Assembly: GCF_030209745.1 (NCBI RefSeq)
Contig: NZ_JARVRJ010000004.1
Span: 62,001 to 126,000 of the forward strand
Direction: 5' to 3'
Source of the DNA: Arthrobacter sp. fls2-241-R2A-200
GTDB taxonomy: Bacteria; Actinomycetota; Actinomycetes; Actinomycetales; Micrococcaceae
DNA: 64,000 nt
The number at the start of each line of letters is the position of its first letter. The first letter of the stretch is position 1. Position numbers and translations under genes: made by a program. Under the pieces are notes generated by a model. The model saw only the letters and a list, made by a program, of their open reading frames with translations. It made no database searches and was not told the origin of the DNA. Shown here one piece after another: positions 30,385-46,632 of this stretch.

Positions 30385-33300
30385 TCAGACGGCCTCGTTC
30401 ATCCAGTTCTTGGTGAACGTCTCCTCGAGCATCCGGACGTAGGTGTCCAGGTCCAGCGAGGCGATGAGCCGCTCGATCCGGTCGGCCGGCAGCTGGTGCA
30501 GGTCGTCGTTGACGACGACCATCGACCAGGTTGGGTCGATGGCGTTAATACGCCGCACCACGACGTCCTGGTCGTCTGGGAGCACGGCGAGCCCGTCCGA
30601 CATGCTGGCCTCGGCGCGGGAGCGGGCCCAGCCGTGATGGCGCAGCACCTCCAGCGCGACCGGGTCGCGCTTGGTCCGGCCGATGTCCTCCTCGCGGCGC
30701 TTGGCCTGGCTGGCCGCGGTGACCTTCCAGGCACCGGCGTTGAGCAGGCTCCGGGCGTTCTCGGTGCCCTCGCGGACGATGAACACCCGGTTGACCATCT
30801 GCAGCACCTGTGGGTCGCGGACGTTGGTCACGTGACCCTGCTCGCTGAACTTCACACCCACGGCGGGGTCGATGGGCGCAGCCGAGAAGGGGTAGGTGAT
30901 CGAGCCGCGGGAGGCCGCGATGACGTTCTGGAACAACAGGAGCGACCGGATCGGGTCGTCCTCCAGGACCGCCTCCTCGATCACCTTCCGGCCCAGCATC
31001 AGGTCGAAGGGCTCCGCGATCGCCGACTCCCCCCTGCTCGCCACCGTCTGCAGGTAGCGGGCCAGGGCGAAGTCGATCACGGCCGGGTGGGCCAGCGACT
31101 TCGTCGGAGTCGGGCCCGCGTGGCAGGCCAGCGTGCCGCCACCGGCGGCGATGATCGGACTGTCTGCCACGGACCGCCCCGGTTCCGGGGCCTCCAGCTC
31201 CAGGCGGTTGTTCGAGTCCTTGCTGATGAGGAACATCAGCTCAGGTTCGATGTCGACGCCGATGGCCTCCTGCTGCTCGGCGAGCACCCGGTTGTTGGTC
31301 GCTTCGTCGAATCCGTTCTCGCCGCCGACGACCGAGTAGAGGCCGTCGGTGTTGGTGGAGATGATCCGCGCCCCGGCCAGCGTCTGGGCCTGTCCGATCC
31401 GCCAGCTGAACAGCTGGCCAAGGATGCGCATCGAGATGATGCGGTTGTTCATCCGGATCGGCGTCCGGTGACTTGCGTCGCCTGCGCCCGAGGCCGAGTT
31501 GAGGATCAGCTTCGTGCCGTTGCGCAGCACGCCGAGCCCGGCGATCTGAGCCTTCATCCGCGCAGCTTCAGGGCTGTCGCCCGGAAGCTGCGCCAGCTGC
31601 TTCTTCAGCCCCTTGATCTCCTTGCCGTAGCGCTCTTTGTCGAAGAAGATCTTCGCGTAGCGGTCCTCACCCAGCTCGGGGTTCCAGAACGCCCGCATGT
31701 TGCGCAGCAGGTTCGGGTAGTAGCTGGTGAAGTCCTCGTGGATCACCAGGCCAGCCGAGGTACGTGCGAACTTCGGGTGCAACTTGTCGGAGCCGTCTTC
31801 CTTGGCGATGAACAGCTCCGGCTTCTTCTTGGCCGGCTCATCGCGGTAGGCGGCATTGGTGGCCGTGCTGTTGGCGAGTACCACCTTGCCTTCCAGGACA
31901 CCGCCGTCGGGCAGGACGACGTTCAGCGCCTCCGCCTCGGGCCGCTGGGTGGTCAACAGGTCCGCCGGGTCAGGCACCTGGGCCTGGGCGCGGGCGAGCT
32001 GCCCGGCCTGGTCAGGGTCGTCCTTCTTCGGCTTGCGGTACTTGACCTTCTCCGGGTCCGAACCCAGCAGGACCAGCCGCTTGTCGACGAAGGTGCCGTC
32101 GGGCAGGCGGAGCATGGCGTGCTGACGCTTGGCCTCGGCCACGAAGTCCTTTGCGTCCGGGAAGGCCTGCGCTGCCCGGATGAGCATCATGGTCTGATCG
32201 TTGTGCTCGACCTTCTCGGCGTTGAACACCGACAGGTCGGCTTCGGCCCCATGGATGCCGCCGGTGGAGAACGTGGCGAAGCAGGACGACGGCGAGGCGT
32301 CCGCCCGGAAATACGGCACGTTGTTCGGGGTCTTGGGCACATCGCGCAGAGACCGGGCCGGAAGGCTGAACTTGTCGCGGTACTCCTCGGAGTCGTTGAA
32401 GTTCTGCCCCTCGATCGAGCGGTAGTACGCCACGACTTGCAGGAACTGCCGGTGGGCCTCGCGCTGGGCTGCAGTCACTTCGGAGTGGGTGGCCGGGTCG
32501 GGCGCGACGTTCTCCTCGAAGAAGCGCACACACTCGTCGAGCACGTTGACCGGCTCGATCCCGCGTTCTTTAGCGACCTCGGGGTGCGGATATACGAAGG
32601 ACACCGCCTCGATGTCATCCAGTGAGGCGTAGGGTGCGAGGATGCGGCCCACGAACTTTGCCGATGAGGAGTCGACTGCCAGCCGGTCCTTGCGCACCGC
32701 ACCGTTATTGGTGAACACCGTTTCGGTGAACTGGGCGAGCAGAGCGGCCTTGAGATCGAAGTTGCTCGCGTACGCCGGGTGCCGGAACAGCTGGGCCAGA
32801 CCAAGGCAGTCCGAGACGTTGTAGGCCAGCAGCTCATAGAGATCCTCTACCGCCTCGATGCTCGTGTCATGGCTGAGCTTCTCGGATTCCTTGATCTGGC
32901 GGCCGAGCATCCCGAGCAGGCGCTTGAGGCTGACCTTGGACTGCAGTTCGTTCAGCCGGGCCACGTCCAGGTGCCGGCCCGAGTGAAGCATGGCGCGGCG
33001 GATCTTCGCAGCCGCCCCGTCCCAGCCGAGGTAGCCAGGCATGTACTCGATGTGCTGGGACGAGAAGAGCTGGTCGTTGTGGTCGCGCAGAGTACGGGCC
33101 GTGGTCGGCTGAAACGGCCGACCGCTGCCCGGGGCCGGAAACGCCTCGTTGAGGTAGAGCGCGACCATAGTCGTGTCATAGTTCATTGAGTTGTAGCCAG
33201 CAAGGAACGGATGCACTGCCGGGTCGTACTCGGGGTCTGTGTCGCAGACCGGACGCAGCGCCGCGGGGTACCCGCCTGGGTCGGAGTGGTTGCACACCTG

Positions 33301-33609
33301 GTCGGCGTTCGAGAGGCCCATCAGTTCGGCGAGCCGGAGGCTGCCCCGTTCGCCGCCGAGGTTCCAAAGCTGGACGCTGACCGCGGGCAGCCCCGGGTTG
33401 GAGCGGATCACGGTGTCGTAGAGGGCTTGGGGGTCGACGGAGGCGACCAGCGCCGGGTCGTCGGCCAGGAAGAAGATCTCCAGGTCGTGGACGGCGCGGC
33501 CCGGCCGCGGGGTGTAGGCGCACAGCGTGAAGACGTTCGACAGCGATTCGATGTCGTAGAACGTGAAGAGCGCGGTCTCAGCTGTGACGGGGGTGCGCTG
33601 GGTGGTCAT
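30385..33609 (-). CDS. family B DNA polymerase, phage/plasmid type
   Basis: 1074 aa. Exonuclease motifs: DIE at 19-21, GYNSMNYD near 140 and YNVSDC near 263. Polymerase motif A DFTSYYP near 628, motif B KLILNSASG near 703, and motif C STNTDGLY near 753, where the usual YGDTDS is changed as in several phage polymerases. Long insertions separate exonuclease and palm domains. It would copy the element with 3'-5' proofreading. Start: ATG at 33609 with GAAAGG; an upstream in-frame start at 33642 adds 11 residues. It is followed by its own terminator and transcribed with the primase-helicase upstream. Confident. Confidence 0.93.
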   Translation of the reverse strand: MTTQRTPVTAETALFTFYDIESLSNVFTLCAYTPRPGRAVHDLEIFFLADDPALVASVDPQALYDTVIRSNPGLPAVSVQLWNLGGERGSLRLAELMGLSNADQVCNHSDPGGYPAALRPVCDTDPEYDPAVHPFLAGYNSMNYDTTMVALYLNEAFPAPGSGRPFQPTTARTLRDHNDQLFSSQHIEYMPGYLGWDGAAAKIRRAMLHSGRHLDVARLNELQSKVSLKRLLGMLGRQIKESEKLSHDTSIEAVEDLYELLAYNVSDCLGLAQLFRHPAYASNFDLKAALLAQFTETVFTNNGAVRKDRLAVDSSSAKFVGRILAPYASLDDIEAVSFVYPHPEVAKERGIEPVNVLDECVRFFEENVAPDPATHSEVTAAQREAHRQFLQVVAYYRSIEGQNFNDSEEYRDKFSLPARSLRDVPKTPNNVPYFRADASPSSCFATFSTGGIHGAEADLSVFNAEKVEHNDQTMMLIRAAQAFPDAKDFVAEAKRQHAMLRLPDGTFVDKRLVLLGSDPEKVKYRKPKKDDPDQAGQLARAQAQVPDPADLLTTQRPEAEALNVVLPDGGVLEGKVVLANSTATNAAYRDEPAKKKPELFIAKEDGSDKLHPKFARTSAGLVIHEDFTSYYPNLLRNMRAFWNPELGEDRYAKIFFDKERYGKEIKGLKKQLAQLPGDSPEAARMKAQIAGLGVLRNGTKLILNSASGAGDASHRTPIRMNNRIISMRILGQLFSWRIGQAQTLAGARIISTNTDGLYSVVGGENGFDEATNNRVLAEQQEAIGVDIEPELMFLISKDSNNRLELEAPEPGRSVADSPIIAAGGGTLACHAGPTPTKSLAHPAVIDFALARYLQTVASRGESAIAEPFDLMLGRKVIEEAVLEDDPIRSLLLFQNVIAASRGSITYPFSAAPIDPAVGVKFSEQGHVTNVRDPQVLQMVNRVFIVREGTENARSLLNAGAWKVTAASQAKRREEDIGRTKRDPVALEVLRHHGWARSRAEASMSDGLAVLPDDQDVVVRRINAIDPTWSMVVVNDDLHQLPADRIERLIASLDLDTYVRMLEETFTKNWMNEAV

Positions 33610-33851
33610 GGGTCTGGCCTTTCGGTCGTCACCGGCCGTCACGGCCGGGGTATGCAGTTATCTGGTCGGGGTGCCGGCTGCTGCCGCGGATGGCCTTAGG
33701 CGGCGCTTCTTCCTTGTGACGGGCGCGGGGACCGGCCGGGCACCGCGGACCCATCGACCTCCCACCAGGGAGTAGCCGAAGTGCTCACGCTGGCCGATGC
33801 AGTCGGCGCATTCCTTTCCGGGTGAGACTCCCTCTCCTGCACATCCGTCCT
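33610..33851. other. 242-base gap with an unstarted Cys-containing frame
   Basis: The minus strand holds an open stretch with protein-like sequence (KECADCIGQREHFGYSLVGGRWV) ending at about 33657, but no ATG, GTG or TTG precedes it in frame. It may be a broken small zinc protein or chance; not called as a gene. Confidence 0.3.
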
Positions 33852-34095: not shown

Positions 34096-35937
34096 TCAGT
34101 CCTCTCCTGTGGTGTCCTCGTCGTCGGCGTCCACCTGGGCGGCGGGACCGGTGTGCCGGAGCAGGCCGCGGTAGTTGGCCTGAAGGACCGGCTGCGACTT
34201 CTTTTTCGGGTCCGAGCCGCTGTAGTGCGGGTTCATCCACTTCTTCAGCTCGTACTCGGCGATGGTCGTCTCGGGGGTGGCCATCATCTGGCCGGGGCGG
34301 ATCTTCTTGTTCTTGTCCGGGCAGTGCCACAGCGGGTCAGGCCGCACGATCGCAACCAGGTCCGTGATGAACTGCTTGTTGCTCACCGGCGACCCCGAGG
34401 GCGAGACGTCTGCGAACCAGGCCTTGTAGAGGTCATAGGTGAAGGTGAAAGGCACCAGGTCCCACACCAGCCGCTCGCGGAACTCTTCCCAGAAGGCGCG
34501 CACGGGGTCGTTGGCCTCCTTGTACTCGGCCAGGACGTCCTTGGTCGCCACCGGCTCGGAGAGCTGGTAGTAGTTGCCCGGGTCGGCTGCGCCGGCGCGG
34601 TTGAGCACGTACCAGAGGGCGTACTCCAGGACCTCGCGGCGCTGGAGGTAATCGTCCTTGATGTACTTGCGCTCCATGCCGGTGAAGCTCTTGTTGAACG
34701 GTACGAACAGCTGCCGGCGGTAGAAGCTTTCGGACTTGTCCTTCACGCGCGGGAACTCGTTGAGGCACTGGACCATGAAGCCGAAGAACTGGTAGGCGAT
34801 CGGCATCCGGTACTTCCGGTTGATCTGGATGACGTCGTTGGTGACGATCGCCTTCAGGTTGGCCGCTTTGTCGATGAAGGTGCCCACGTCGTTCTCGTCG
34901 ACGATGATCGCGTTGGCGCGCACGAGCGGCTCGAGCGCGAAGTCCTTGCCGAAGTCGCTCAGCGGGATCGAGGTGTGCGAGCGTGGCCCGCACAGGTTGC
35001 GCATGAGCGAGCACAGCGTGCCCTTGCCGTTGTTGCCCTGTTCTGAATAGAACCAGGCAGTCTTGCCCCAGCTGACGTGCGGCCGGATGATCGCGCCGAT
35101 GACCTCCCAGAGCAGCTCGGGGATACCCTCCTCGTCGGAGAGCTCGTGGATCCAGGACTCGATGTCCCAGACCGAGCCGTCGACAGGGTGGACGATCACC
35201 GGGTTGTCCGGGTCTTCGACGTAGTCGATGTGGCACTTGGCCAGGAACACCAGTGCCGGGTCGAAGGGTACGAGCGACTTGGGTTCGAAGTGGAAGGCCT
35301 TGCCGCCCTCATGGATGTCCCGGGCCTCGCGGCCGTAGTGGAACACGCCGTTGTTCACGGCGATGAGGTCTCTGTGGCTGCACTGGTGCCGGCGCGGGCT
35401 GTCCTCGCGGAGTACTGCCAGGACCTCGGCGAACTCCTTGAGTGTCAGCTGCGTGTTGTAACGGCGTGCCGTGGTGCGGATGTCGTCCTCGCTGGTGGTG
35501 TACGTGCCGCGGCCCGGGCCGGTGGCCTGGTACATCGCCAGCAGGTCGTACTCGCGGTCAGTGTCCTTGGCGCTGGGGGCGATGCGGATCACGTGGTGCA
35601 GGCTCAACAGGATTTGCGCCACTTGCCAGTAGGTCAGGTGCCGGGCCAGGGGCAGCTTCTCGGCAGCCACCTTGGTCTTGCTGTTCTCGGCCTTGGAGAC
35701 GCCGTTCACGATCGCGAGCAGCTGCTTCTCGAGCAGGCGCGGTGCCGGCGGGTCCGACGGGTCGATCAGCTGGAGGTAGACCTCGGTCGCGCGCGTGACT
35801 ATTTCGTTTTGCGGGGCGATGTCGCCGCCGTCGGCGAAGTACGTCATGACCTCGGTGAAGGCGTCGGCGACAGGGTTGGTCGAGGGGGTGTCGAAGTCCT
35901 CGTCGAAGACGGGCGTTGGGTCGTCAGGAGTCGTCAT
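34096..35937 (-). CDS. D5-like primase-helicase (SF3)
   Basis: 613 aa. A D5_N-like region precedes an SF3 helicase core: Walker A SEQGNNGKGT near 300, a Walker B-like IIVDEND, and a C motif region VQCLNEFP; the C-terminal 150 residues are a winged-helix-like tail. The family unwinds DNA at phage and plasmid origins, often fused to a primase. No full AEP or TOPRIM domain is clear in the first 200 residues, so priming may come from the AEP-like protein at 7.4 kb. Start: ATG at 35937 with GAAAGAC six bases upstream; a GTG at 36024 is possible. It lies directly beside the iteron-like array. Confident on the helicase. Confidence 0.88.
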   Translation of the reverse strand: MTTPDDPTPVFDEDFDTPSTNPVADAFTEVMTYFADGGDIAPQNEIVTRATEVYLQLIDPSDPPAPRLLEKQLLAIVNGVSKAENSKTKVAAEKLPLARHLTYWQVAQILLSLHHVIRIAPSAKDTDREYDLLAMYQATGPGRGTYTTSEDDIRTTARRYNTQLTLKEFAEVLAVLREDSPRRHQCSHRDLIAVNNGVFHYGREARDIHEGGKAFHFEPKSLVPFDPALVFLAKCHIDYVEDPDNPVIVHPVDGSVWDIESWIHELSDEEGIPELLWEVIGAIIRPHVSWGKTAWFYSEQGNNGKGTLCSLMRNLCGPRSHTSIPLSDFGKDFALEPLVRANAIIVDENDVGTFIDKAANLKAIVTNDVIQINRKYRMPIAYQFFGFMVQCLNEFPRVKDKSESFYRRQLFVPFNKSFTGMERKYIKDDYLQRREVLEYALWYVLNRAGAADPGNYYQLSEPVATKDVLAEYKEANDPVRAFWEEFRERLVWDLVPFTFTYDLYKAWFADVSPSGSPVSNKQFITDLVAIVRPDPLWHCPDKNKKIRPGQMMATPETTIAEYELKKWMNPHYSGSDPKKKSQPVLQANYRGLLRHTGPAAQVDADDEDTTGED

Positions 35938-36038
35938 GCTGCTGTCTTTCTCGATCGCGTCGAGTACCTGCCGGCAGTGAGTGGGAAGCCGATTGGTCTC
36001 GTAATCGAATAGGAACGTGCTCACGACTCTATGCCATC

Positions 36039-36047
36039 CGAATGGTC
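36039..36047. promoter_or_regulatory. CGAATGGTC motif in the primase promoter
   Basis: On the minus strand TTGCGA is followed by GACCATTCGGATGG and then CATAGAGT, a plausible -35/-10 pair with the motif in the spacer. Another member of the GACCATTCGA family. Confidence 0.5.
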
Positions 36048-36176
36048 TTTCGCAACGAGTCGACTGATAGCCGACTCATGGTCCGGCAGAGGTCCCGGGT
36101 GGGGCTCGGAGGGGTCGCGCGCGAGACCCGGAGGCCACGACGACACGACGAGAGCGTGCGGTCTGGAATGAGAAAC

Positions 36177-36211
36177 AGCGGCTCCGGGGGCGTATGCCCC
36201 ACGGAGCCGCT
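36177..36211. repeat. orphan hairpin beside the iteron array
   Basis: AGCGGCTCCG pairs with CGGAGCCGCT and encloses GGGGC-GTAT-GCCCC. No gene ends nearby, so it may terminate a short RNA running rightward from the primase promoter region, or mark the origin. Confidence 0.5.
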
Positions 36212-36365
36212 GGCTTCTCGTGCTCGAGCACTCCCCCGCGGGCGGCGTGAGCCGCCCGACCCCCTGGTCGGGGTTCGGGGAGTTCTTCCGACCGGCCGGC
36301 CGGGAACCTCCAGAGCTGGGATCCGGCTGCAGCAGCGAGCCGGTATACCCCCTATGGGTATCGGA

Positions 36366-36792
36366 AGGTGTACCACTTGACGTGGTACACCTGTTTCCCC
36401 TGGTCAGTCGGGGATTTCAGGACTTCTCCAAACGGGGTGTACCACATGGAGATTTGCACGTGGTACAGGCGTTTGCCCTGGTGAGACGGGCTTTATATAC
36501 CCCCTGTACCACTTGTACCACTAAATAAAGACTAGATATACGCGCATGGGGATAAGAGCTCTTACTGGCTGGATGACCGATCGGAGGCGTCCTTCGCGCA
36601 CATATGTAAACGCTCGGAATCTGGTGGTACTCGTGGTACACCTGCCGAAAACGCTGATCTACCAAGGCAAAACGGCGTACCACGTCCGCTCGGGCACGTG
36701 GTACAGACTCCCTCGGCCGCGGTCGCCTGACCCGCCGTTTGAGCAGGCCAGCACTGGGATCGGGAGGTGTACCACGACACGTGGTACACCTC
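36366..36792. repeat. mirror-symmetric array of twelve GTACCAC heptamers
   Basis: Heptamers occur as two inverted pairs with 5-base spacers at the ends (36370/36382 and 36769/36781), two inverted pairs with 14-base spacers inside them (36439/36460 and 36677/36698), and two direct pairs at 9-base pitch in the centre (36506/36515 as GTACCAC; 36624/36633 as GTGGTAC). The order IR5-IR14-DR9 is therefore mirrored as DR9-IR14-IR5. The outermost pairs extend to AGGTGTACCAC and GAGGTGTACCAC. The centre is AT-rich. Its place beside the primase-helicase gene suggests a replication origin; a centromere or operator array is the alternative. Confidence 0.75.
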
Positions 36793-37042
36793 GGCGCTGC
36801 GTCCTCCCGTGCAGCGGAGCATCAGGCCCTGACGGCCCTGACGGGAGCGACCGCGATGGGTCCGGCGTCCTGGTCGACCGGGCTTCCGAGTGATTCCGAG
36901 TGATTCCGAGACAGACCTTCGAATGGCCGCCGGAATGGGATGCCAACTGCATTGCACATGATGAATCGACACTGATAGAGTGGGCATTGGTGTTAGGGCC
37001 AGGAACCGTCACCAGGCGTTGTTGTCACAGGAACGTGAAAAC

Positions 37043-37092
37043 AGAAAGGCCGGAGAAGCATCCCCGTGGGAAGGGAGCTCTCCGGCCTTTCT
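37043..37092 (-). terminator. hairpin terminator after the 136-aa gene
   Basis: A perfect 14-bp stem, AGAAAGGCCGGAGA / TCTCCGGCCTTTCT, with a 22-base loop; it faces the array and would stop minus-strand transcription from 37134. Confidence 0.65.
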
Positions 37093-37133
37093 GCGCGCTC
37101 ACGCTGGTGCGAGGCCCAGGGTGCGCCGGCCGC

Positions 37134-37544
37134 CTAGAAGGCGGCCGCGCTGCGGCCTCGCCGGTATCCCGCATTGGGGGACTCGGGTATGTGGGCACGG
37201 ACCCGGTGGCCGTCCTCGACGGCGTACAGGATCTCGTAGGTGATGGAGACGTTGCGGTTGCAGGGCATCACACCCTGCCTCCGGCGCATCTCGAGCTTGC
37301 GGAAGCCAGCGACGGACTCGGCGCGTTCGAAGAAGCGGGCGAGCATCTCGCGGGCGCGTTCGCGCGCCTGCTCCGCCGTGCCGCCGCTGGTGCTCATGGT
37401 GAAGAAGTGCATGGACCCTCGATCGAAGGTCGGCCTCTCACCGGTGTCTAAGTCGCTGGCGAACCGCGCGCGGCGCACTTCGCTGCCGCTGGGGCGCACG
37501 AGCCGGCCTTGCGCGTCATACGCGCACTTGTTGACGACGGCCAT
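37134..37544 (-). CDS. hypothetical protein, 136 aa
   Basis: Unrecognised basic protein. Central helix EQARERAREMLARFFERAES, then strands with CNRNVSITYEILYAVEDGHRVRAHI. The start at 37544 has a strong AGGAGGTGGATC site. It is isolated by terminators on both sides and reads towards the putative origin. Possibly an origin-region regulator, but no HTH is evident. Confidence 0.6.
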   Translation of the reverse strand: MAVVNKCAYDAQGRLVRPSGSEVRRARFASDLDTGERPTFDRGSMHFFTMSTSGGTAEQARERAREMLARFFERAESVAGFRKLEMRRRQGVMPCNRNVSITYEILYAVEDGHRVRAHIPESPNAGYRRGRSAAAF

Positions 37545-37633
37545 GGTGGATCCACCTCCTCTCAGGTCTGGCTGACGAAAATCCTTCAGCCAATCCCCCG
37601 GTGACCGGATCACCCCGGTCACCCGAGAGCAGG

Positions 37634-37680
37634 CCCTCCGGAGCGACCGTCGGCCCACGGCCGAAAGGTCGCCCGGAGGG
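37634..37680 (-). terminator. hairpin terminator after the CPBP gene
   Basis: CCCTCCGG and GCGACC pair with GGTCGC and CCGGAGGG, 14 bp with one bulge; it follows the stop at 37715. Confidence 0.7.
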
Positions 37681-37714
37681 CACCAGCGTCAGTCCTGCAC
37701 GTTGAGCCCGGCCG

Positions 37715-38539
37715 CTATGCGGCCTGTGGCTCGCTTTCCCTGCATTCTTCCCCGCCGGCCTCCCTGTCGTCTTGTGCAGGCCCGCACGCGGGTGCCGCCA
37801 TGCGGTACACCGCCAGGGCGCACGCGAGGAACGCCGCGGTCATCAGCAGCGCTGAGACGGGGTTCGCCAGTGCGCCCAGCAGCTGGGCGGGGACAAGGAC
37901 GGCCGCGAGGTTGAAGGCCAGGTGGAGCAGCACGCACGGCCACAGGACGCGGGTGCGTTCGTAGACCAGCGCCAGCAGCACCGCCAGGGGCAGCGTGGCA
38001 GCAAACTGGACGACGTTGGCGTGCAGCAGGCTGAAGCCCGCGGCGGTGACGAGCACCGCCGCGACGATGCCGACCCTGCGCCGCAGCAGCGGGTAGAGCA
38101 GGCCGCGGAAAAGCATCTCCTCGGCCACCGGCGCTGCCACCAGTGCGAGCAGGAGGGCCACGACGGGACCGGCGTCTGTCTTGGCTCGGGTCGATTCATC
38201 GAATCCCGCCGAGCCGCTAAGGGTATAGAGCCACAAGGCCAGGGACTGGCCGGCGAAGAACGCCAGAGCCAGGCACCCAAGCACCGTTCGGGTAAAGCGC
38301 GGTGTTCCGGACATCGGTCGGACCGTTGGCGCGTTGGCGAACCACCGGGGCCGGAAGAGCCTGGCAGCGCTGACGAGCAGCGCCACCAGGCCTCCGAGCA
38401 CCGCCGTACCCAGGACGGGCTCGCCGACCTCGGAAACTACGGCAAGGCCAAGTCCCAGGTAGGCGGCGAGCACGCCGAGGGGCACGAGGACACACCACGC
38501 GATGGAGACGAGCCGGGACTTGATGGGTGGAGCGGGCAT
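37715..38539 (-). CDS. CPBP (CAAX-type) intramembrane protease
   Basis: 274 aa with seven or eight membrane helices. CPBP motifs are present: EE-x3-R at 140-145 (AEEMLFR), a Phe-x3-His equivalent in FSLLH, and a late His-x3-Asn (HLAFN). These membrane proteases cut substrates near the bilayer; bacterial ones process peptides, give bacteriocin immunity or act in signalling. No bacteriocin gene is nearby. The start has GGAGG nine bases before the ATG at 38539. It follows the recJ-like gene by 19 bases, so the two may be co-transcribed. Confident. Confidence 0.87.
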   Translation of the reverse strand: MPAPPIKSRLVSIAWCVLVPLGVLAAYLGLGLAVVSEVGEPVLGTAVLGGLVALLVSAARLFRPRWFANAPTVRPMSGTPRFTRTVLGCLALAFFAGQSLALWLYTLSGSAGFDESTRAKTDAGPVVALLLALVAAPVAEEMLFRGLLYPLLRRRVGIVAAVLVTAAGFSLLHANVVQFAATLPLAVLLALVYERTRVLWPCVLLHLAFNLAAVLVPAQLLGALANPVSALLMTAAFLACALAVYRMAAPACGPAQDDREAGGEECRESEPQAA

Positions 38540-38558
38540 CCCCGCCTCCTTTCCGTGG

Positions 38559-40484
38559 TCAGACAGACGCAGGGATCTGCTCTTCGATGACGGCCTGGAC
38601 GCGGGTCTCGCCGCGGAAGGTGTTCAGCTGCAGCTTCGCGATGAAACGCAGCGTTCCGACCTCGGTGCGGCTGGCCGACCGCGTCAGAGCCGAAATCTCC
38701 GGCTCCTTCTCCTCGGCGACGTTCCACCACAGGCAGGACAGCCCGGACCTGGTGACCAGCCGCAGGTGCTTCTTGCACAGGCGGCACACGCGGTAGCCGC
38801 GGGCGTTGGTCATCAGGTTGGCGTCGGTGCGCTCATGGCCGCAGTCAGTATCGGAACCGATCCGGTCCACCCGCAGCCCGAGTGGCTCGACAGCGATTTC
38901 GACCACCGGCTCGACGAAGCCGTGGCCGAAGGGCCGCAGCGCTTCCACACGCCGGACGAAGCCGACCAGAGGCTCCAGGTCGTCCAGGCCAGCATCGCAG
39001 TCCCGGTCCGGGCCCAGGACCAGGTCGGCACGGCGCTCATCCTGGACGACAGCCAGCAGGGCAACCTGCGTGGCCTCCCGCAATGCTTCGACCAGACCGT
39101 CGAGCAGTTCCGCCCGGTCGACCTTGACGCCGCAGGCCTGCTGGTGGCCGATGGCGCGCATGCCGTCCTGGTGCTCGAGTGTGTCGATGATGCCGAACCA
39201 CGACGGTGCCCGGCCGGAGCCCCCGACGTAGTCATCCGGCCCGGCGGGACGGTTGAGCACGACGACCGGGTGGCCGTGGCGCTCCATCAGCCGGTTGGCG
39301 AGCAGACCGTACATGCCCGGGTAGGCCTCGGAGAAGTAGACCCAAGGGGCCAGCGGCTGATCACCCTCCTCGAGCTCCTGGGTGTGGACCTCGACAAGCT
39401 CCTTGCGGCTCTCGTTGGTCGCGATGACCTGGTGTGCCGCCTCGAGCATCAAGTCCTGGTCAGGCGCGGTGAACACGCCGAAGCACGGTGCGAGCGGGTC
39501 GCCCGTGCGGCGCGGGGAGTTCATCGCCGGCGCGAGGTAGAACCCGTAGAAGCCCTCGTCGATGCTGTCGATGTCGCGGACCTTGCCTGCCTGGCCGAAG
39601 GCCTTCAGCAGGACCGCGAAGCCCTCGAAGGCCCGGACGAAGGCCGGGTGGTGCGGGTCGACGCGCAGCAGCTGCATCAGCGTCGACCGCCCGACGTCGA
39701 TCGCCTCGGGGTCCGGGTCGAAGCCCCAGGGGGTCGGGACCGTGCGCGGCGCGGGCGCGTACAGCAGCCGTGCGATGGACAGCGAGTCGCGCACCAGCTG
39801 CCGGTTCTCGTACAGCACGGGCATGACGTCGGAGACGGTGCCCAGGCCGGCGAACAGGCGCAGCAGGCGGATCTCCCAGAGCTTCTCCGGCCGGTGGACG
39901 CGGGCATAGGCCTCCAACACCTGGTAGAGCACGTGCGCGCCGCAGATGCCGGTGTTGGCGTAGGTCTCGTCCATCCGACAGGGGTCGACGGTGACGTCGG
40001 CGCTCGAACCGGGTTCGAGCTCCTCGTGGTGGTCGGTGACCAGGGTCTTCCATCCCAGAGCCCGGGCGGCGGCGATCCCGCGGTGGGAGTTCACTCCCCC
40101 GTCGCAGGTCAGCAGGACCTTGGTGTCCGGCCACGTCGCTGCGATCTCTGCGATGTCCTCGGGCGTGAGGTCGTGGCCGCGGCGGTAGTCGGGCACGTGC
40201 AGCTCGACGTCGAAGCCGAGCTCTGACAGTCCGGCGTAGCCGAGCACACCGGAGGAGATCCCGTCCATGTCGAAGTCAGGGGCGATGGTGACCTTGTGGC
40301 CGGCGGCCCGGGCGTCTTCCAGGGCCTCGACCATCTCGGCCAGGCCCAGGAGCTCGTCGTGTTCAGCTGATTCGATCTCGCGGAGGTACTCGTCGGTCCA
40401 GCCGCGGCGCTGGCACATCAGGGCGAACAGGTCGACGCCGTCGTCCGTCAGTGGATGGTCGTCGACGGTCTGGAGAATGGTCAT
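38559..40484 (-). CDS. RecJ-like DHH single-strand exonuclease
   Basis: 641 aa. Motif I DFDMDG at 70-75, DGG near 128-130 and DHH at 151-153 match the RecJ/DHH phosphoesterase core; DHHA1-like GGSGRAP follows. The C-terminal region includes a Cys cluster (CRLCKKHLRL..GLSC) not usual in RecJ, and lacks a clear standard OB fold. It probably degrades 5' single strands in recombination or replication repair. The ATG at 40484 is chosen for its GAGAGG site; a TCGAATGGTC motif lies 23 bases upstream. Confident on family. Confidence 0.88.
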   Translation of the reverse strand: MTILQTVDDHPLTDDGVDLFALMCQRRGWTDEYLREIESAEHDELLGLAEMVEALEDARAAGHKVTIAPDFDMDGISSGVLGYAGLSELGFDVELHVPDYRRGHDLTPEDIAEIAATWPDTKVLLTCDGGVNSHRGIAAARALGWKTLVTDHHEELEPGSSADVTVDPCRMDETYANTGICGAHVLYQVLEAYARVHRPEKLWEIRLLRLFAGLGTVSDVMPVLYENRQLVRDSLSIARLLYAPAPRTVPTPWGFDPDPEAIDVGRSTLMQLLRVDPHHPAFVRAFEGFAVLLKAFGQAGKVRDIDSIDEGFYGFYLAPAMNSPRRTGDPLAPCFGVFTAPDQDLMLEAAHQVIATNESRKELVEVHTQELEEGDQPLAPWVYFSEAYPGMYGLLANRLMERHGHPVVVLNRPAGPDDYVGGSGRAPSWFGIIDTLEHQDGMRAIGHQQACGVKVDRAELLDGLVEALREATQVALLAVVQDERRADLVLGPDRDCDAGLDDLEPLVGFVRRVEALRPFGHGFVEPVVEIAVEPLGLRVDRIGSDTDCGHERTDANLMTNARGYRVCRLCKKHLRLVTRSGLSCLWWNVAEEKEPEISALTRSASRTEVGTLRFIAKLQLNTFRGETRVQAVIEEQIPASV

Positions 40485-40506
40485 GGCGGGGGGCCTCTCG
40501 ATCGTG

Positions 40507-40516
40507 TCGAATGGTC
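40507..40516. promoter_or_regulatory. TCGAATGGTC motif before the recJ-like gene
   Basis: An exact member of the GACCATTCGA family, just upstream of the recJ-like start in an AT-richer intergenic region shared with the divergent lsr2 gene. Confidence 0.5.
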
Positions 40517-40691
40517 GGTTTACAGGGGTGGGGAAAGGCACCCGCTGGCAGTGTGATTTTAGCAGTGTGTCAGGTGGATTATGCTGGAATAGCAGCGTTT
40601 TCGGCCTATGATGAAGGCATTCGAAAGATCTGTCGTTCTGGCGTGCCCAAAGACTTCTCTAAGGTGGTTCGGATCGTCTACCATTCAAGAC

Positions 40692-41027
40692 ATGGCTATT
40701 CGAAATATTGTGGAGTCGGACATCAGTGGCAAGCCGGATGCTGCCACAGTCACCTTCGGACTGGGCGACACCTGGTTCGAGATAGACCTGACCGACGAAG
40801 AGCGCAAAGAGCTTGAGAAGAATCTCAAGGAATACATCAGTAAGGGTCGAAAGGCCACTAAGAAGGGCGAGAAGAAGCGACTCGTGCCCGAGACGACGCC
40901 CGAGGAACGCGAGGAGATCCGTAAGTGGGCGCGCGAGAACGGTCATGAAGTGCCCGAGTTCGGTCGCATTCCGAAAGCTGTCATGAAGGCCCACGATGAG
41001 GCACACGGCATCGAGCGGACTCTCTAG
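40692..41027 (+). CDS. lsr2: Lsr2-type nucleoid-associated protein
   Basis: 111 aa. N-terminal dimerisation strands (ATVTFGLGDTWFEIDLTDEERKELEKNLKEYI) and a C-terminal DNA-binding domain (EREEIRKWARENGHEVPEFGRIPKAV) match Lsr2, with the linker Lys-rich. Lsr2 binds AT-rich DNA and silences foreign genes, much like H-NS; plasmid copies can act as stealth factors. Local GC is lower than around it. The ATG at 40692 is preferred by homology of the N-terminus; an upstream in-frame ATG at 40608 would add 28 unlikely residues. Followed by a 12-bp terminator. Confident. Confidence 0.9.
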   Translation: MAIRNIVESDISGKPDAATVTFGLGDTWFEIDLTDEERKELEKNLKEYISKGRKATKKGEKKRLVPETTPEEREEIRKWARENGHEVPEFGRIPKAVMKAHDEAHGIERTL

Positions 41028-41096
41028 CCCACCCTTTCCGCAGTCTTTCGGGCCATACCGGAGAGATTTCCGGCCACCTATTCGAATCAAGGATCA

Positions 41097-41126
41097 ACAG
41101 CCCTGCAGCACCAGCTGCAGGGCTGT
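41097..41126 (+). terminator. terminator of lsr2
   Basis: ACAGCCCTGCAG / CTGCAGGGCTGT, a 12-bp stem with a 6-base loop, followed by TGTC. It lies between convergent genes, so it may work in both directions. Confidence 0.75.
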
Positions 41127-41150
41127 TGTCATGTCCGGGGTGTGCACTTG

Positions 41151-41639
41151 TCAGAACGGAGGCAGGCGCGGGTGGATGATGTCTTCGACCTCGATGCTTG
41201 CAGCCAGGGCGCGGGAACGGGCGTGCACGGTGCCATGTGAGAAGTGCCCTGGCGTTCCGGGCATCAGCTGCTGCTGGCCGGTGCGTTGGTCGCACTGGCT
41301 GCAAAGGTCCAGGAAGGCGGCGACACGGACCTGCGCTCCCCCGGCGCGCATGGCGACGAGGGCATCGACCATCCGTTGGTTCCGGGTGAAGCCCGCCGCC
41401 TTGGGCTCAGCGCTCCAGTCGCCCGGGAACTCAATTACTTCGAAGCCGGCAGCCCGCCACAGCCGCTCGGCCATGGCGTCAGCACCCTTGGGACAGTGCC
41501 CTGAGAGGAGCACGGGTCGGGCGACCGCAGACGGTCCCCAGGCTCTCCAGGCCTCGTTCAAAGCCGCCTTCATGGCCTCCGCGGCGTCCCAGGTCCGGGA
41601 ACCGGTCACGAGCAGCGCATGGCTGAATCCACTGGTCAT
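41151..41639 (-). CDS. SLOG-family protein (YspA/DUF2493-like)
   Basis: 162 aa. A Rossmann-like SLOG core: LLVTGSRTWDAAEAM at the N-terminus, LLSGHCPKGADAMAERLW, then an FEVIEFPGDW strand. SLOG proteins bind nucleotide-derived ligands, and the YspA/DUF2493 branch is common in actinophages, where the role is unknown. The C-terminal third is unusual, with CSQCDQRTGQQ. It overlaps the 34-aa gene by four bases. A nucleotide-sensing or nucleotide-processing role is likely. Confidence 0.8.
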   Translation of the reverse strand: MTSGFSHALLVTGSRTWDAAEAMKAALNEAWRAWGPSAVARPVLLSGHCPKGADAMAERLWRAAGFEVIEFPGDWSAEPKAAGFTRNQRMVDALVAMRAGGAQVRVAAFLDLCSQCDQRTGQQQLMPGTPGHFSHGTVHARSRALAASIEVEDIIHPRLPPF

Positions 41640-41740
41640 CGCGATGCCTCCCGGCTGGTCATCTTGGTCATCGGCATAGATCCCGCCGGGGCCGCCGCGG
41701 TGGCAGTCCGGATTGTGATACTCGTCTGTCGCTGCATCAT
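41636..41740 (-). CDS. very small protein, 34 aa
   Basis: A short frame (MMQRQTSITIRTAT..) from tandem ATGs at 41740/41737 with AGAGGA upstream. Its stop overlaps the SLOG start (ATGA), as for many genes here. It may exist mainly to couple translation. Confidence 0.4.
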   Translation of the reverse strand: MMQRQTSITIRTATAAAPAGSMPMTKMTSREASR

Positions 41741-41807
41741 TCGCGTCCTCTTTCGCCGCAATGTTTTCCGGAATGATTCCCGGTGTTTCTTCTCAGTCGG
41801 CTGGTCA

Positions 41808-42140
41808 CTACGCGGCAGCTGCCGACGCCTGGGCACTGTTGACCCTGGCAGCGCCGCGTTCGTAATGGATTGCCACCCGGACCTTCCGGTCCTCGCTGAG
41901 CGGTGCGACGTGAAGGGTGTATCCACCGTCCTTGTCGCGCTGGAGGTAGGCGACGCCGACCGTGCCGCTCTCTTCATCGTCGAAGTCGACCTTGCCAAAG
42001 CTCTCCGCCGGAGTCGCCTCAGTGACTCGCTCTCCGTGGGGGATCCACGGCCCGGCCTCGCACCTGGCTCCGGTGTCGTAGGGCGAGAGCTGCGGCTGTG
42101 GCCGGCGTGCGGACCTGGATGCCTTCCGGGCGTGTGTCAT
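41808..42140 (-). CDS. hypothetical protein, 110 aa
   Basis: Unrecognised. Basic disordered first 35 residues, then a compact strand-rich part (FGKVDFDDEESGTVGVAYLQRD..GYTLHVAPL). Start at 42140. It heads the small operon ending with the SLOG gene. Confidence 0.6.
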   Translation of the reverse strand: MTHARKASRSARRPQPQLSPYDTGARCEAGPWIPHGERVTEATPAESFGKVDFDDEESGTVGVAYLQRDKDGGYTLHVAPLSEDRKVRVAIHYERGAARVNSAQASAAAA

Positions 42141-42688
42141 GACGATGCCTCTTCTGTTTCTCGGGATGTAGGTGTCGGGCATCGAGTGCAGGTCCCGCCA
42201 GGGGTCCGCGGAGACTCGATGTACGGTCCAGCTCCCGTGCCAGCTCCGCTGGCCTGACGGCCTTCTGGTGAACCGTGTCGGGAACTGCTCCGACTGGGCC
42301 GCGCAGCGGGCCGGCCGACGGGCCGTCCTCCTCGGACAAACCTGGTGCGCAGCGCCAGGTGATCCACCGCCTGGCTGCACCCTTTGCTGCGTCGTCCACC
42401 TGTGGATAAATGCGGCGGGGCAGGCGGGGGCGTCCTCCACTCAAGCGCAGCGCTGGGCATAGCCGGAGGGAGCGCAGCGACTGACGGACCGGCGAGCGAA
42501 GCGAGCGGTGGAACCTGTCGGCTATGCCGACCAACAGCGTCTCGAAGCGCAGCGAGAGACCGAAGCGAAGCGGAGGGTCCGCAGGACCGCTGTTGCCAGG
42601 TTCCCTTATGCCCTTTTCCTCTCTTGCCGCCATTTCGCCATTCCACGGCTGGAGCGTTAGCGGAAGCCTGGAATATCAGGGGAAACGC

Positions 42689-42863
42689 CCCGTACACCCT
42701 TGACCCGTACACCCCCTCTCCATCCGCGCAGCGGGTGTACGGGTCATGTCGTTTCCGCTGGATTTACGGGCTTTTGGGTGTACAGCCCTTTTGCCGTCCG
42801 CTGCAACGCCGTACGGATGCATCTTCCGCACCACCGCGAGGCACGAGCGGGTACCCGTACGGG
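42689..42863. repeat. GTAC-centred repeat cluster with 14-bp inverted repeat
   Basis: CCCGTACACCC occurs at 42689 and 42704, GGGTGTACGGG at 42733, GGGTGTACAGCCC at 42776, CCGTACGG at 42809, and a further GTACCCGTAC run near 42852. TGACCCGTACACCC (42701-42714) and its exact complement (42733-42746) form a 14-bp inverted repeat with an 18-base gap. The GTGTAC core is shared with the array at 36.4 kb, but the flanks differ. Confidence 0.6.
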
Positions 42864-43599
42864 TCCTCACACGTAGCGTCAGCGACGTCGGGCGCAGCCC
42901 GGTCCGCACCCCCTGGTGCATCCTGCTGCCGCAGGCGCATCAGACCCGGAGCGCAGCGGTCCACCACTCCCCGCGACCTGTCGCGTCAGGCTGTGGAAAA
43001 CTCTGCTGTCACAGCACTGCACTGATCTGTCGGTGCGCTCGTCGCACCCGTGTGCGGGTGCTCACTCCGGCTCTGTTTCGCGGTCGCGCCAGCATCTGTC
43101 GCACCGCGTCCGAGGCGGGCCCACACCGCTTCCTTGCCGGGGTCCGTTCCGGGCCGGCCGGCTGCCCCTCCTGGTGGCAGCTGCACCCCCGGATGAGCGA
43201 CAGCGAGTCCTCGACGGCCACCGCCCGGCCTGCCCCTCGTGGACGCATCAGAAGAGGAGCTTTCCCGGGAAGCATGAAGCCTCCCAGATCCAACGGGAGC
43301 CCCCGCTTCCCAGCGTCACGGAGCCGCCCGGGTCTCCCACCAGGTGCAGCTTCCTGGAGAGCCTCGCGGGTTCTCACCTTCTGGACCCCACCGCCCGTGA
43401 GGCACGGAAGGAAGCGGAGTTTTTGCCCTTTCGCTCCATGCGGGGCCCTACTACCCGGTTCGCCTTTTCCCTCCGCTCTCCTTGCGGCCCCCGGGCGGGT
43501 CGGTGACGCCACAGGCGCAACCACAGCTGCTCCACCCTGCTCCGATAGCTCCTCCGCTTGCTCCAGGACTGCCTAGAGGTGTCGCAGGCGGGTGTTCCA

Positions 43600-44145
43600 G
43601 GTACCGGTCCGGGCCCGCATCGCTGGACCCCTTCTGGTCCCGGAGTGGACAGATCATTGCACCGGCATGGCCAGACAGGGACACAGACCAGACCCATAAA
43701 AGACCCGAGAGAGTCCAGAAAGGCCATTCAGGCCCCATTGAGTTCCGGATGGCACTCCTTGGGGCCGCTTCGGGCGTACTGCTGGTCCCATGATGGTCTC
43801 TTACAGGTCTGCTCTGGTCCGGCTCGCGACGGTGGACTGTTGCTGGTCTCTTCGAGGGCGCTTCTGTGCTTTGTGTGGAACCACCGAGCGCCCTCCAATG
43901 TGCCGTGGCCTGATCGAGGTCTTCTGCTGGTCCGCAGCGGACCGCGTGCCGGTCCCGGGTGAGCCCTTGATGAGTCCTGTGTCTTCTGGTTCCCCGGCAG
44001 ACCCGTGGCCTTCTGCGGGTCCTGCCGGCGGCTCCCACGGGTCCCGCCGCGGCCAGGGGTCGCTCACGGTGATGCAGGCCTGATCTGCTGGCGGCCTTTT
44101 GCTGGTCTTGGCGTGGTCCTTGCAGAGACCATTGAAAGACCAGTA
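43600..44145. repeat. candidate parC-like centromere upstream of the par operon
   Basis: GGTC(C/T) motifs, often as CTGGTC, recur on the plus strand (for example near 43783, 43795, 43806, 43815, 43843, 43919, 43927, 44103 and 44115) and inverted as GACC near 44127 and 44137. Actin-type partition loci usually place such repeats just before parR/parM. Spacing is irregular, so the call is tentative. Confidence 0.35.
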
Positions 44146-44172
44146 GAATGATGACTGATAAATGAGTCGAAA

Positions 44173-44204
44173 GGTCCCCGACTGGCAGTAGCGCCTCGGG
44201 GACC
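44173..44204 (+). promoter_or_regulatory. leader hairpin of the par operon
   Basis: GGTCCCCGA / TCGGGGACC, a 9-bp stem in the presumed 5' leader, 20 bases before the leader peptide start. It could attenuate or stabilise the message. Confidence 0.45.
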
Positions 44205-44224
44205 GCGCATGAGAGGGGGCCGCG

Positions 44225-44278
44225 ATGACCGAGGACAGTGTCCATCAGCACGAGGGCGCAAGGGGGTGCTCGCAATGA
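44225..44278 (+). CDS. 17-aa leader peptide overlapping parR
   Basis: ATG at 44225 with GAGAGGGGG upstream, encoding a 17-residue peptide that begins MTEDSVHQHEG. Its TGA overlaps the next ATG (ATGA at 44275). This would couple parR-like translation to the leader. Short and so uncertain, but the overlap is exact. Confidence 0.45.
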   Translation: MTEDSVHQHEGARGCSQ

Positions 44279-44742
44279 CCGATAAGGCCGAGCCACGCCG
44301 TCTGCGCTGGAGCGTCCCGCGGGCCGACGAGTCGACGAACCGGTGGCTGGACGAGCAGTACGACATCTCGCGCTCGCTCCAGCTGCTGATCCGCGAGTCC
44401 ATCCAGCGCGACGGCTACATCGACGTGGTCAACCGTCCCGTTGAGCATCTTCCCCGGCGCGGCCGCCCGCCGCAGGGCGAGCAGGACCCTGGGCGCAGCG
44501 AGGCCCATGAAGGAGAGGAACGCGGCGATGACGGCCGTGACGGGAGTGAAAGCCAGCACGAGAGTCGCGAAGGCCGTGACGAGGCTGCCGTGCCTGTTGC
44601 TGTTTCTTCAGAGCCCGTGCAGCGCGTCGAGGCAGCCCAGGCTGTTCAGCCGCCGCCCACGCCTCCTGTCCGCGAGCCCCACCCTGTTCCCGCCGAGGAG
44701 CCTTCTGTCCCTTCGGGGCTGGACGCCTTCCTCACCCGCTGA
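44275..44742 (+). CDS. ParR-like partition adaptor
   Basis: 155 aa. The first 60 residues are basic with a ribbon-helix-helix-like pattern (RRLRWSVPRADESTNRWLDEQYDISRSLQLLIRESIQ), close to ParR/StbB proteins. The remainder is acidic then Pro-rich and probably disordered, ending SGLDAFLTR, a short conserved-looking tip that could touch the filament end. ParR binds the centromere and caps ParM filaments. Its place just before the ParM-like gene is the main support. I prefer the ATG at 44275 over 44209, which lacks a ribosome site. Confidence 0.72.
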   Translation: MTDKAEPRRLRWSVPRADESTNRWLDEQYDISRSLQLLIRESIQRDGYIDVVNRPVEHLPRRGRPPQGEQDPGRSEAHEGEERGDDGRDGSESQHESREGRDEAAVPVAVSSEPVQRVEAAQAVQPPPTPPVREPHPVPAEEPSVPSGLDAFLTR

Positions 44743-44794
44743 TCCGCACCGCACTTCCTGAGACACCGACTTCCTGACCGAGAGGGACACAACC

Positions 44795-46108
44795 ATGAGC
44801 AACACCCGCACCGCCGAGAAGACCATCCAGCTCACCGGCGGCATCGACGTCGGCAACGGATACGTCAAGGGCGTCATCCGCGGCGAGGTCCACGGCAAGG
44901 AGGTCTTTGACACGATCGACCTTCCTTCTGCCGTGGTGAGCACCTCGCGCTCCACGCCCAAGGTGCCCGAGGCTGACTCGGATGCCTTCAAGATCGTGGT
45001 GGAGGACGACTTCTACAACCGCGTCGCCGCCTCGTTCACCACTCCCCTGATCGGGCACTCGGACCTGCGCACCTTCGGCCGCGCGGCACTGAGCACCCCT
45101 GGGTCGAAGTTCACGCAGTTCGAGGTCGTCGGATCCCGCTCGAAGGCCGACCAGGAACTGAGCTCGGTGCTCGTCCTGGGCGTCTTCGCCGCCAAGGCCC
45201 TGCGCGACTATGTCCGCGAGCACGGCGCGCTGCCGGACCGCGAGCTGCGCGCCACGGTGCGCGCAGGCCTGGCTCTGCCGATTGCCGAGTACGTGCAGCG
45301 CCGCAGCGCCTATGCTGCCCAGTTCGCGGGACTCCTGGGCGCGGCCGACCCCACGGTGCACCTGGTGACCGTGAAGAACTTCTCCACGCCGGTCACCGTG
45401 CGCCTGCAGTTCGAGGATGTGCAGGTCCTGCCCGAGGGCGCGTCCGCGCAGTTCGCGATCACCGACAAGGGCGCGCCGCTGGCGCAGGCTCTGCTGGACG
45501 ATCTTCGGGCCTCGGACCCCGAGGAGGCCGCGCGCCTGCAGGGTGTCACCGCCGAGCTGCTGGTCGGTGTGCGCAACACCGTCGGCGTCGACGTCGGCGA
45601 GGGCACCGTGAACTTCCCCGTCTTCACCGACGGCGCGTTCAACTCCGAAGCGGCCAGCACGCTGGACCAGGGCTACGGCACCGCGCTGACGAACGCGCTG
45701 GACCGCATGAGCACCAGCGGAGACAAGGACCTGAGGTTCAAGAACCGCAAGGCGCTGGCCGACTTCCTGCAGCAGGAGCCCAGCGTATTCCTCCAGGGCA
45801 GGTTTGACCGCGCCAAGGGCTACGTCGACGAGGAGGCCGAGTACCTGGCCGAGGAGATCGGCGCACGCTTCGAGGACGTCCTCGCCGAGGTCGGCGGCAC
45901 CACCGAGGTGGTGTACGTCTACGGCGGCGGTTCGGGCCCGATCAAGGAGATCCTGCGCACTGTCCTGCAGAAGGCCGCCGGCGGCATCCCGGTGCTCTAC
46001 CTCGACGCCGCGTACTCGCGCCACCTGAACCGCGAGGGCCTGTACCTGGCGGCGAAGGCCGTCGAGGTCCAGAAGCCCGAGGGCAAGCGCAGCAAGGCCG
46101 CGGCGTGA
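44795..46108 (+). CDS. parM: ParM/Alp-like actin ATPase for partition
   Basis: 437 aa. Actin-fold phosphate-1 motif GGIDVGNGYVKG at 15-26, phosphate-2 motif GVDVGEGTVN near 265, and adenosine motif VYVYGGGSGP near 372. Length is greater than E. coli ParM (about 320), nearer the actinobacterial and phage Alp branch, with an insertion around 150-240. ParM polymers push plasmid copies apart, helped by ParR. The start has GAGAGGG seven bases before the ATG. It is followed by a long 19-bp hairpin. Confident on the fold and role. Confidence 0.87.
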   Translation: MSNTRTAEKTIQLTGGIDVGNGYVKGVIRGEVHGKEVFDTIDLPSAVVSTSRSTPKVPEADSDAFKIVVEDDFYNRVAASFTTPLIGHSDLRTFGRAALSTPGSKFTQFEVVGSRSKADQELSSVLVLGVFAAKALRDYVREHGALPDRELRATVRAGLALPIAEYVQRRSAYAAQFAGLLGAADPTVHLVTVKNFSTPVTVRLQFEDVQVLPEGASAQFAITDKGAPLAQALLDDLRASDPEEAARLQGVTAELLVGVRNTVGVDVGEGTVNFPVFTDGAFNSEAASTLDQGYGTALTNALDRMSTSGDKDLRFKNRKALADFLQQEPSVFLQGRFDRAKGYVDEEAEYLAEEIGARFEDVLAEVGGTTEVVYVYGGGSGPIKEILRTVLQKAAGGIPVLYLDAAYSRHLNREGLYLAAKAVEVQKPEGKRSKAAA

Positions 46109-46189
46109 CGATCATGCATTCGTGGCCCGGTCCCGAGAGGCTTGCGGTCGGCATCGAGATGATGCGTGCAGGCTGCCGATCGCGTACTG

Positions 46190-46233: not shown

Positions 46234-46297
46234 CCCCGAAAGAGACCACTGATCGACCAACAACAGACCACAGCCCACCCCAGGAGGGATCAATACC

Positions 46298-46528: not shown

Positions 46529-46558
46529 CGCCCGGCAGGCACAGCGCGGGCGAAAAAG

Positions 46559-46599: not shown

Positions 46600-46632
46600 T
46601 TGCGGTGCTGGTGATCCAGGTCAACAGGATGG

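Follow-up and report, generated by a model that had tools for sequence, protein, structure and literature searches.

What is the function of twelve copies of a single heptamer that stand in mirror order next to a helicase gene? The question is raised by a stretch of 64,000 nucleotides from Arthrobacter sp. fls2-241-R2A-200 (hereafter the window), which is part of the 281-kb contig NZ_JARVRJ010000004.1 and carries an array of GTACCAC heptamers in front of a gene for a D5/P4-family helicase. A sequence-only reading had regarded the array as a nucleoprotein origin or centromere of a kind that it did not recognise. Here, we analysed the array, its relatives in other genomes and the genes around it, and consider it fairly probable that replication of a probably mobile element of actinobacteria starts at the array and that the array is read by the adjacent ring helicase, which resembles the primase-helicase of the staphylococcal pathogenicity island (SaPI) SaPI5. 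Layout and conservation of the array are direct observations; we infer binding and replication at the array because its geometry is nearly constant, because the helicase gene is its constant neighbour and because a plasmid has kept the array without replication genes.

The array in the window

Twelve exact heptamers lie within 418 bp (36370-36787), starting at 36370, 36439, 36506, 36515, 36677 and 36769 in forward orientation (GTACCAC) and at 36382, 36460, 36624, 36633, 36698 and 36781 in reverse orientation (GTGGTAC). An outer inverted pair with a 5-bp spacer (IR5, GTACCAC-5-GTGGTAC, 36370..36388), an inverted pair with a 14-bp spacer (IR14, 36439..36466) and a direct pair at 9-bp pitch (DR9, GTACCACTTGTACCAC, 36506..36521, plus strand) form the left arm. 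Beyond a central spacer (36522..36623), the right arm repeats this order in mirror image with a DR9 (36624..36639, minus strand), an IR14 (36677..36704) and an IR5 (36769..36787). The coordinates bear out exactly the twelve heptamers and the mirrored spacers 5, 14, 9 and 9, 14, 5 that had been claimed from the letters alone. An AT-rich centre had been claimed as well; an AT-rich part does exist (65% AT over 40 bp), but its peak is found at 36492..36531, around the left DR9, and not in the centre. We regard this part as a candidate unwinding stretch.

A second motif, CCWGGTCAG, was found between the heptamer pairs. Box B1 (CCTGGTCAG, 36399..36407, plus strand) matches it exactly and is conserved in position among relatives, and box B2 (CCTGGTGAG, 36477..36485, plus strand) has one mismatch and reads CCWGGTCAG in most aligned relatives. 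The remaining two boxes are degenerate in the window: B3 (36654..36667, minus strand) reads CTGACCAGG and B4 (36743..36751, plus strand; two mismatches in the window) reads CCAGGTCAG in relatives, in which the boxes are generally clearer.

In the whole window, GTACCAC occurs 18 times compared to 2.4 expected copies, a number of at least 18 was reached in none of 100 shuffled sequences, and 12 of the 18 copies belong to the array. A GTGGTAC...GTACCAC pair at 46196-46227 was left out of the array count since, on inspection, it forms a hairpin stem 3' of a ParM-like gene. Given two pairs of each type, mirror order together with mirrored direction of the direct pairs would arise by chance in about 1 of 30 cases (hand calculation). 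The symmetry of a single copy is thus weak evidence, and the strong evidence has to come from conservation among relatives.

Conservation among relatives

We read 23 arrays with their flanks and removed seven near-duplicates (at least 93% identity), which left 16 non-redundant arrays; a more distant array, that of G1591, was handled apart. Across the 16 arrays, 168 of 192 heptamers are exact, the weakest being the sixth, which is exact in a fraction of 0.19 of the arrays and reads GTACCAG in the aligned Streptomyces rows. Start-to-start spacings are 11-12 (IR5; 12 in 15 arrays and 11 in one), 56-58, 20-21 (IR14), 45-46 and 9 bp (DR9, in all 16) on the left, and 9 (again in all 16), 43-44, 21-22, 68-74 and 11-12 bp on the right. 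Hence, spacings within the arms differ by only 0-2 bp with the exception of the one gap of 68-74 bp, while the centre varies in sequence as well as in length (88-165 bp start to start). Mean column conservation is 0.98 in the heptamers, 0.85 in the boxes (a loose set of columns with some chance matches among them), 0.77 in the rest of the arms and 0.74 in the centre.

In 22 of the 23 arrays the helicase gene is the neighbour, as had been noted for the window, and in all 22 module-linked cases the array is located 5' of it. The array of G1591 (helicase identity 66%) has the same order, at spacings of 12, 57, 21, 46 and 9 bp, a centre of 145 bp, and 9, 45, 20, 78 and 12 bp, plus one extra heptamer. 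A Brevibacterium array has an IR4 and an IR13 towards the helicase and a degenerate outer pair on the far side. Within the close family, neither unrelated sequence at this site nor random heptamer spacing was seen in homologous elements.

When GTDB contigs were scanned for the left DR9, 16 stretches were returned; the array is present in 13 (truncated in two by the end of the stretch) and absent from three (L081, L087 and L088); the bearers belong to the genera Streptomyces, Arthrobacter, Pseudarthrobacter, Kocuria and Promicromonospora. As to frequency, 3 of the 295 genomes examined in the family carry the IR5-IR14 pattern, as do 9 of 206 in the genus and 8 of 392 in Streptomyces. These counts overlap, and the genome of the window or others found before are among them. 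The reversed control pattern was absent among the matches listed.

The host element

In a second genome of the genus, the same DNA is found inside a 4.4-Mb contig at 95-98% identity over positions 17.3 to about 187.7 kb of the window's contig (with gaps and one short piece at 80%), whereas matching stretches outside this range reach only 74-88% in the same comparison. This step in identity marks an integrated element of about 170 kb. Judging from its genes for a TraG/TraD-type coupling protein, a large serine recombinase and a topoisomerase, the element is probably mobile; no relaxase was recognised in it. It also encodes a single-stranded DNA-binding protein (SSB) and an SNF2-type helicase, beside a RecJ-like protein, a predicted polymerase and the D5/P4-family helicase. 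In Streptomyces sp. NBC_01454, relatives of its backbone genes are found on a 640-kb circular plasmid (NZ_CP109461.1), where they extend from about 539 kb past the record start to 94 kb. No Rep_3/RepA-type initiator was detected among the scanned proteins, which cover part of the element's genes. No DNA match was obtained in INPHARED phages, and the helicase matched 453 INPHARED records, all below 60% identity among the matches listed.

A plasmid with the array but without the module

The 45.6-kb plasmid NZ_CP109058.1 of Streptomyces sp. NBC_01304 (L003) carries an array in which all twelve heptamers have at most one mismatch and spacing is kept to 0-3 bp, yet no match to the helicase or polymerase gene was found on it. 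At the DNA level it shares only two stretches with the element: the array and a second non-coding locus (42501..42814 in the window), which lie 5.7 kb apart with intervening genes in the element and are neighbours in L003. Outside both loci, two weak protein matches (24% and 35% identity) were obtained. The 10.66-Mb chromosome of the same strain has the helicase-polymerase module plus an array of its own. Family scans of 26 of the 52 annotated L003 proteins, covering all of at least 200 aa, revealed no known initiator; several large proteins, two of 697 and 905 aa among them, had no family match. L003 hence resembles a helper-dependent replicon, and its replication would then depend on the chromosomal module.

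Could the L003 array instead be a relic or an incompatibility decoy on a plasmid with its own unrecognised initiator? The two large family-less proteins and the fact that L003 is a single example speak for this explanation, which is compatible with the array being the element's origin. A relic would have no need for twelve well-kept heptamers at spacings within 0-3 bp, and a decoy no need for the second locus. We therefore regard this alternative as rather doubtful. Another explanation, in which the array or the neighbouring locus is an origin of transfer (oriT) or other transfer site, would fit a plasmid that may spread with a helper element, the hairpin and repeats of the second locus, and the TraG/TraD-type coupling protein of the element. 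L003, however, has a MobF relaxase and a coupling protein of its own and yet no recognised replication genes, and of all explanations considered we find the transfer site the least credible.

Distant helicases and other repeat arrays

Does the layout persist where the helicase has diverged? A viral contig with a 56% identical helicase (L244) has nine exact TGTCGCG heptamers in front of the helicase gene, arranged as outer inverted pairs, single sites and central DR9 pairs facing each other (one member mismatched), together with six CCTGGTCAG boxes (one mismatched), of which the three left ones run forward and the three right ones in reverse. In sequence terms, L244 keeps boxes and mirror order with a different heptamer. 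L242 (helicase 51% identical) retains GTACCA in three pairs at 21-bp spacing, and no boxes of the CCWGGTCAG type were found there. No such heptamer array was seen beside the helicases of L243, L245 and L246 (41-51% identity), nor in a 40-kb stretch of Serinibacter arcticus (G418), whose orphan helicase has no polymerase match. Among viral contigs, the DR9 pattern occurred in 65 stretches, one of which (L021) has a single 21-bp inverted pair; the IR5-IR14-DR9 order was present in none of the 65, and the IR5-IR14 pattern had no match in viral contigs.

Helicases of this type are also preceded by repeats of other kinds. Fourteen GTCACAA sites, many at 21-bp steps, stand in front of a 36% identical D5-type helicase (L247, 3886-4432). 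AAACCTT repeats, several at 10-bp pitch, precede a second helicase on the 251-kb viral contig of L242 (L243, 4550-4720), and five 94-bp repeats with paired GGTGGTCTC occupy the place of the array before the orphan helicase of G418 (L116, 260-720).

On the protein side, all 24 helicases that adjoin a GTACCA array carry the motif D-K-x-[KR]-K-x-R in the C-terminal domain, and none of 11 others does. Two contrasts are informative: the orphan, 75% identical helicase lacks both motif and array, and the distant L242 possesses both.

Genes and hairpins around the array

The helicase gene (34096..35937, minus strand) has DUF5906 and Pox_D5 matches and belongs to TIGR01613; its nearest structure is 7ola, the SaPI5 primase-helicase. 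Mechanically, its open reading frame extends to 36024; on inspection, the ATG at 35937 is the likelier start, 433 bp from the array. Hairpins (36160..36275, minus strand, z -6.2) fill part of this distance and are matched at least partly in 22 of 22 module-linked arrays; neither L003 nor G1591 gave a match to them.

An array located upstream of a gene might also serve as a transcriptional operator, in this case of the helicase operon. Dimeric repressors typically bind to inverted pairs, and a mirror array of the same heptamer on a viral contig (L053, see below) stands beside a protein with a weak sigma-70 region 4 match (E 0.0011). Against an operator, the distance of 433 bp and the strong hairpins separate the array from the likely start codon, a search for sigma-70-like promoters, the one type looked for, found none in 35850-37200, and L003 retains the array without the gene to be controlled. 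Distance, hairpins and plasmid together make the operator improbable.

A predicted DNA polymerase (30385..33642, minus strand) matches phrog_1252 'DNA polymerase' (E 1.2e-23) without a Pfam match, and has motifs that we take to be family-B-like; 660 homologues were counted among the candidates scored, and INPHARED phages gave no match. On the opposite side of the array follow a terminator-like hairpin (37042..37093, minus strand, z -7.2; a terminator-like site call), a conserved 174-aa protein that adjoins the array and is kept in relatives (37134..37658, minus strand; no Pfam match) and, in the same module, a RecJ-like DHH phosphoesterase assigned by family match (38559..40541, minus strand). 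A search of 36000-46700 against Rfam returned a single match at chance level.

Second locus and partition genes

In the second locus (42501..42814), a GTCGGC-TAT-GCCGAC hairpin is accompanied by CCGTACCC repeats, which read CCGTACACC in the window and its close relative; hairpin and repeats change together between lineages. As examined, the locus is present in 20 of 22 module-linked loci; the L004 copy is located at another place of the plasmid, and the G1015 copy would lie past the stretch examined because of an insertion. Its predicted RNA folding is no better than that of shuffled sequences (z 0.45). The DnaA box TTRTCCACA occurs once in the window, at 42401 (TTATCCACA), just outside this locus, and not in the array.

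Clustered inverted and direct sites, as in the array, are typical of centromeres, and the element encodes an actin-like ParM/AlpC-like protein (44795..46108, plus strand; MreB-like_C just below the cut-off, phrog_691 partition protein). L003, too, has a gene annotated as plasmid partition protein with a weak ParA-type match. A centromere-like segregation site bound by a partition adaptor thus has to be weighed. The ParM-like gene is, however, preceded by a ParR/AlpA-like gene (44209..44742, plus strand; assigned from position and the look of its sequence, without family match), and this pair, located about 7.4 kb from the array, has TGCTGGTC-type repeats of its own at 43790-44110. This layout resembles alpS-alpAC of a Corynebacterium prophage as described in PMC4446434, which also notes alpAC homologues on pGKT2. 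Since a partition pair with its own repeats exists, and since the neighbour of the array in 22 of 23 cases is the helicase and not par genes, a centromere appears unlikely, if marginally less so than an operator. Of the two functions proposed by the sequence-only reading, the origin is therefore well supported by geometry, helicase linkage and L003, and the centromere is the less likely one.

Proposed mechanism and points against it

If the array is an origin, the C-terminal domain of the helicase would bind the heptamers, and each arm of six heptamers would gather one ring, so that two rings would load face to face across the variable centre. The AT-rich stretch by the left DR9 would melt, and the element's own predicted polymerase and its RecJ-like and SSB proteins would act next. 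The presence of a second box motif suggests a second reader, a factor that would recognise CCWGGTCAG. For the 45.6-kb plasmid of Streptomyces sp. NBC_01304, the module on the chromosome would supply replication in trans. More tentatively, L003 may be a helper-dependent plasmid on a borrowed origin that carries the cis sites only (mirror array and second locus) and is copied wholly by the element's helicase and polymerase; the array may be a fixed scaffold on which two rings of six subunits are placed facing each other, with one heptamer per subunit, and the heptamer an exchangeable password for the helicase C-terminal domain, with boxes and mirror order as the constant part. We regard this extended version as possible, though clearly less likely than the origin function itself.

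Several observations weigh against an origin read by the helicase. Beyond the close family, Gordonia pGKT2 has a related module and a 51% identical helicase, and no IR5 site was found in its 182 kb even at one mismatch, nor was an array detected by repeat search or by reading. Conversely, the AT-rich viral contig stretch L053 (GC 0.32) carries a mirror array of the same GTACCAC heptamer at 8685-8984, in which two outward-facing DR9 pairs stand 79 bp apart with single sites 48/49 and then 39/39 bp beyond; its 13.1 kb gave no match to this helicase, and the array is flanked by the protein with the sigma-70 region 4 match and a 522-aa protein without family. As L053 was selected by its DR9, symmetry alone counts. 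Either another protein reads GTACCAC there or the likeness is convergent, and our confidence was slightly lowered. GC skew, which the sequence-only reading had named as a check, shows no turn at the array: in the element, the array sits on the high plateau, with the maximum 20 kb and the minimum 51 kb away, in L003 it lies at neither extreme, and on NZ_CP109461.1 the extremes (194 and 537 kb) stand almost opposite one another, neither at the array. Correlation of the motif D-K-x-[KR]-K-x-R with the GTACCA array is, at the sequence level, confounded by relatedness. The L003 array is 83.5% identical to that of its own host compared to 86.2% to another, and L003 may possess its own initiator, given the two large family-less proteins. 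Finally, the array is positioned 5' of the helicase gene, whereas PMC7581432 places SaPI origins directly 3' of rep.

Among the papers listed by searches of the open-licence PMC literature, none mentions such an array in title or opening abstract. Should the proposed function hold, the array would provide a bacterial self-loading ring helicase with a conserved and compact candidate origin of explicit geometry; work on this problem has so far centred on SV40, papillomavirus and SaPIs. With its rigid arms and free centre, and with a relative in which the heptamer is swapped, double-ring loading would be directly testable. L003 would represent a naturally occurring minimal satellite that could serve Streptomyces as a ready-made helper-dependent vector, and the origin would account for the existence of a family of large actinobacterial elements both in integrated form and in circular plasmids.

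Further observations on the element

Left of the window, the element encodes a protein of 1853 aa (contig 43527-49088; L005 1527-7088) with weak matches to Rpb2 domain 6 and Rpb1 domain 2 in one chain. Its FDGDFDGD near residue 1411 and GDKISDLHGNKG near 981 resemble catalytic motifs of beta' and beta. No match among solved structures was found, and an 80% identical copy exists on the 640-kb Streptomyces plasmid. The element may thus encode an RNA polymerase fused into a single chain; a role of the protein as relaxase was rejected because the family scan revealed RNA-polymerase-like domains. Around the skew minimum of the 640-kb plasmid NZ_CP109461.1, transposons and group II introns are abundant, and none of 22 features is annotated as a rep gene.

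Comparison with known systems

Phage P4 alpha is a P4-family helicase that initiates at repeated sites, with ori and crr being separate. The helicase family is alike, and the P4 repeat is another one. SV40 T antigen and papillomavirus E1 recognise short inverted-pair sites beside an AT-rich part, where two rings of superfamily 3 (SF3) assemble head to head; they differ from the system described here in an N-terminal site-binding domain and in unrelated sites. In origins of iterons assisted by DnaA, the difference is that no DnaA box lies in the array. ParMRC and AlpAC-alpS share with the element that repeat clusters occur in a mobile element having such genes, but the element's repeats of that sort precede the ParR-like gene, about 7 kb from the array.

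A D5-type helicase and a polymerase gene in one operon are also found in SCCmec (Cch2 and CCPol-MP; PMC7581432, which names the SV40 T antigen and papillomavirus E1 origins as well). According to the same paper, the C-terminal domain of Cch2 binds short repeats, and the Cch2 site is placed downstream in some sentences and 5' in another. SCCmec differs in that only three 5-nt iterons are described there, in its A-family-like polymerase and in the lack of mirror arms. SGI1 with its IncC helper plasmids (PMC7433901) is alike in that replication of one element is tied to another, and differs in that L003 carries the site but no recognised replication gene.

SaPI origins of the SaPI5 Rep type differ from the array in several respects: here, the array lies 5' of the gene, its order is mirrored, three pair geometries are combined and a second box motif is present. 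In addition, no primase domain of the archaeo-eukaryotic type (AEP) was seen in front of the helicase, and host and element are others. The likeness concerns the fold and sequence of the helicase (7ola), which is a member of the SaPI5 Rep/TIGR01613 family, and the several short iterons beside its gene. The judgement that the array is of an unrecognised kind hence holds for the mirror geometry, the second box and the 5' position, which are not described in the consulted part of PMC7581432, but not for the helicase, whose fold is close to the SaPI5 primase-helicase of the iteron-origin group.
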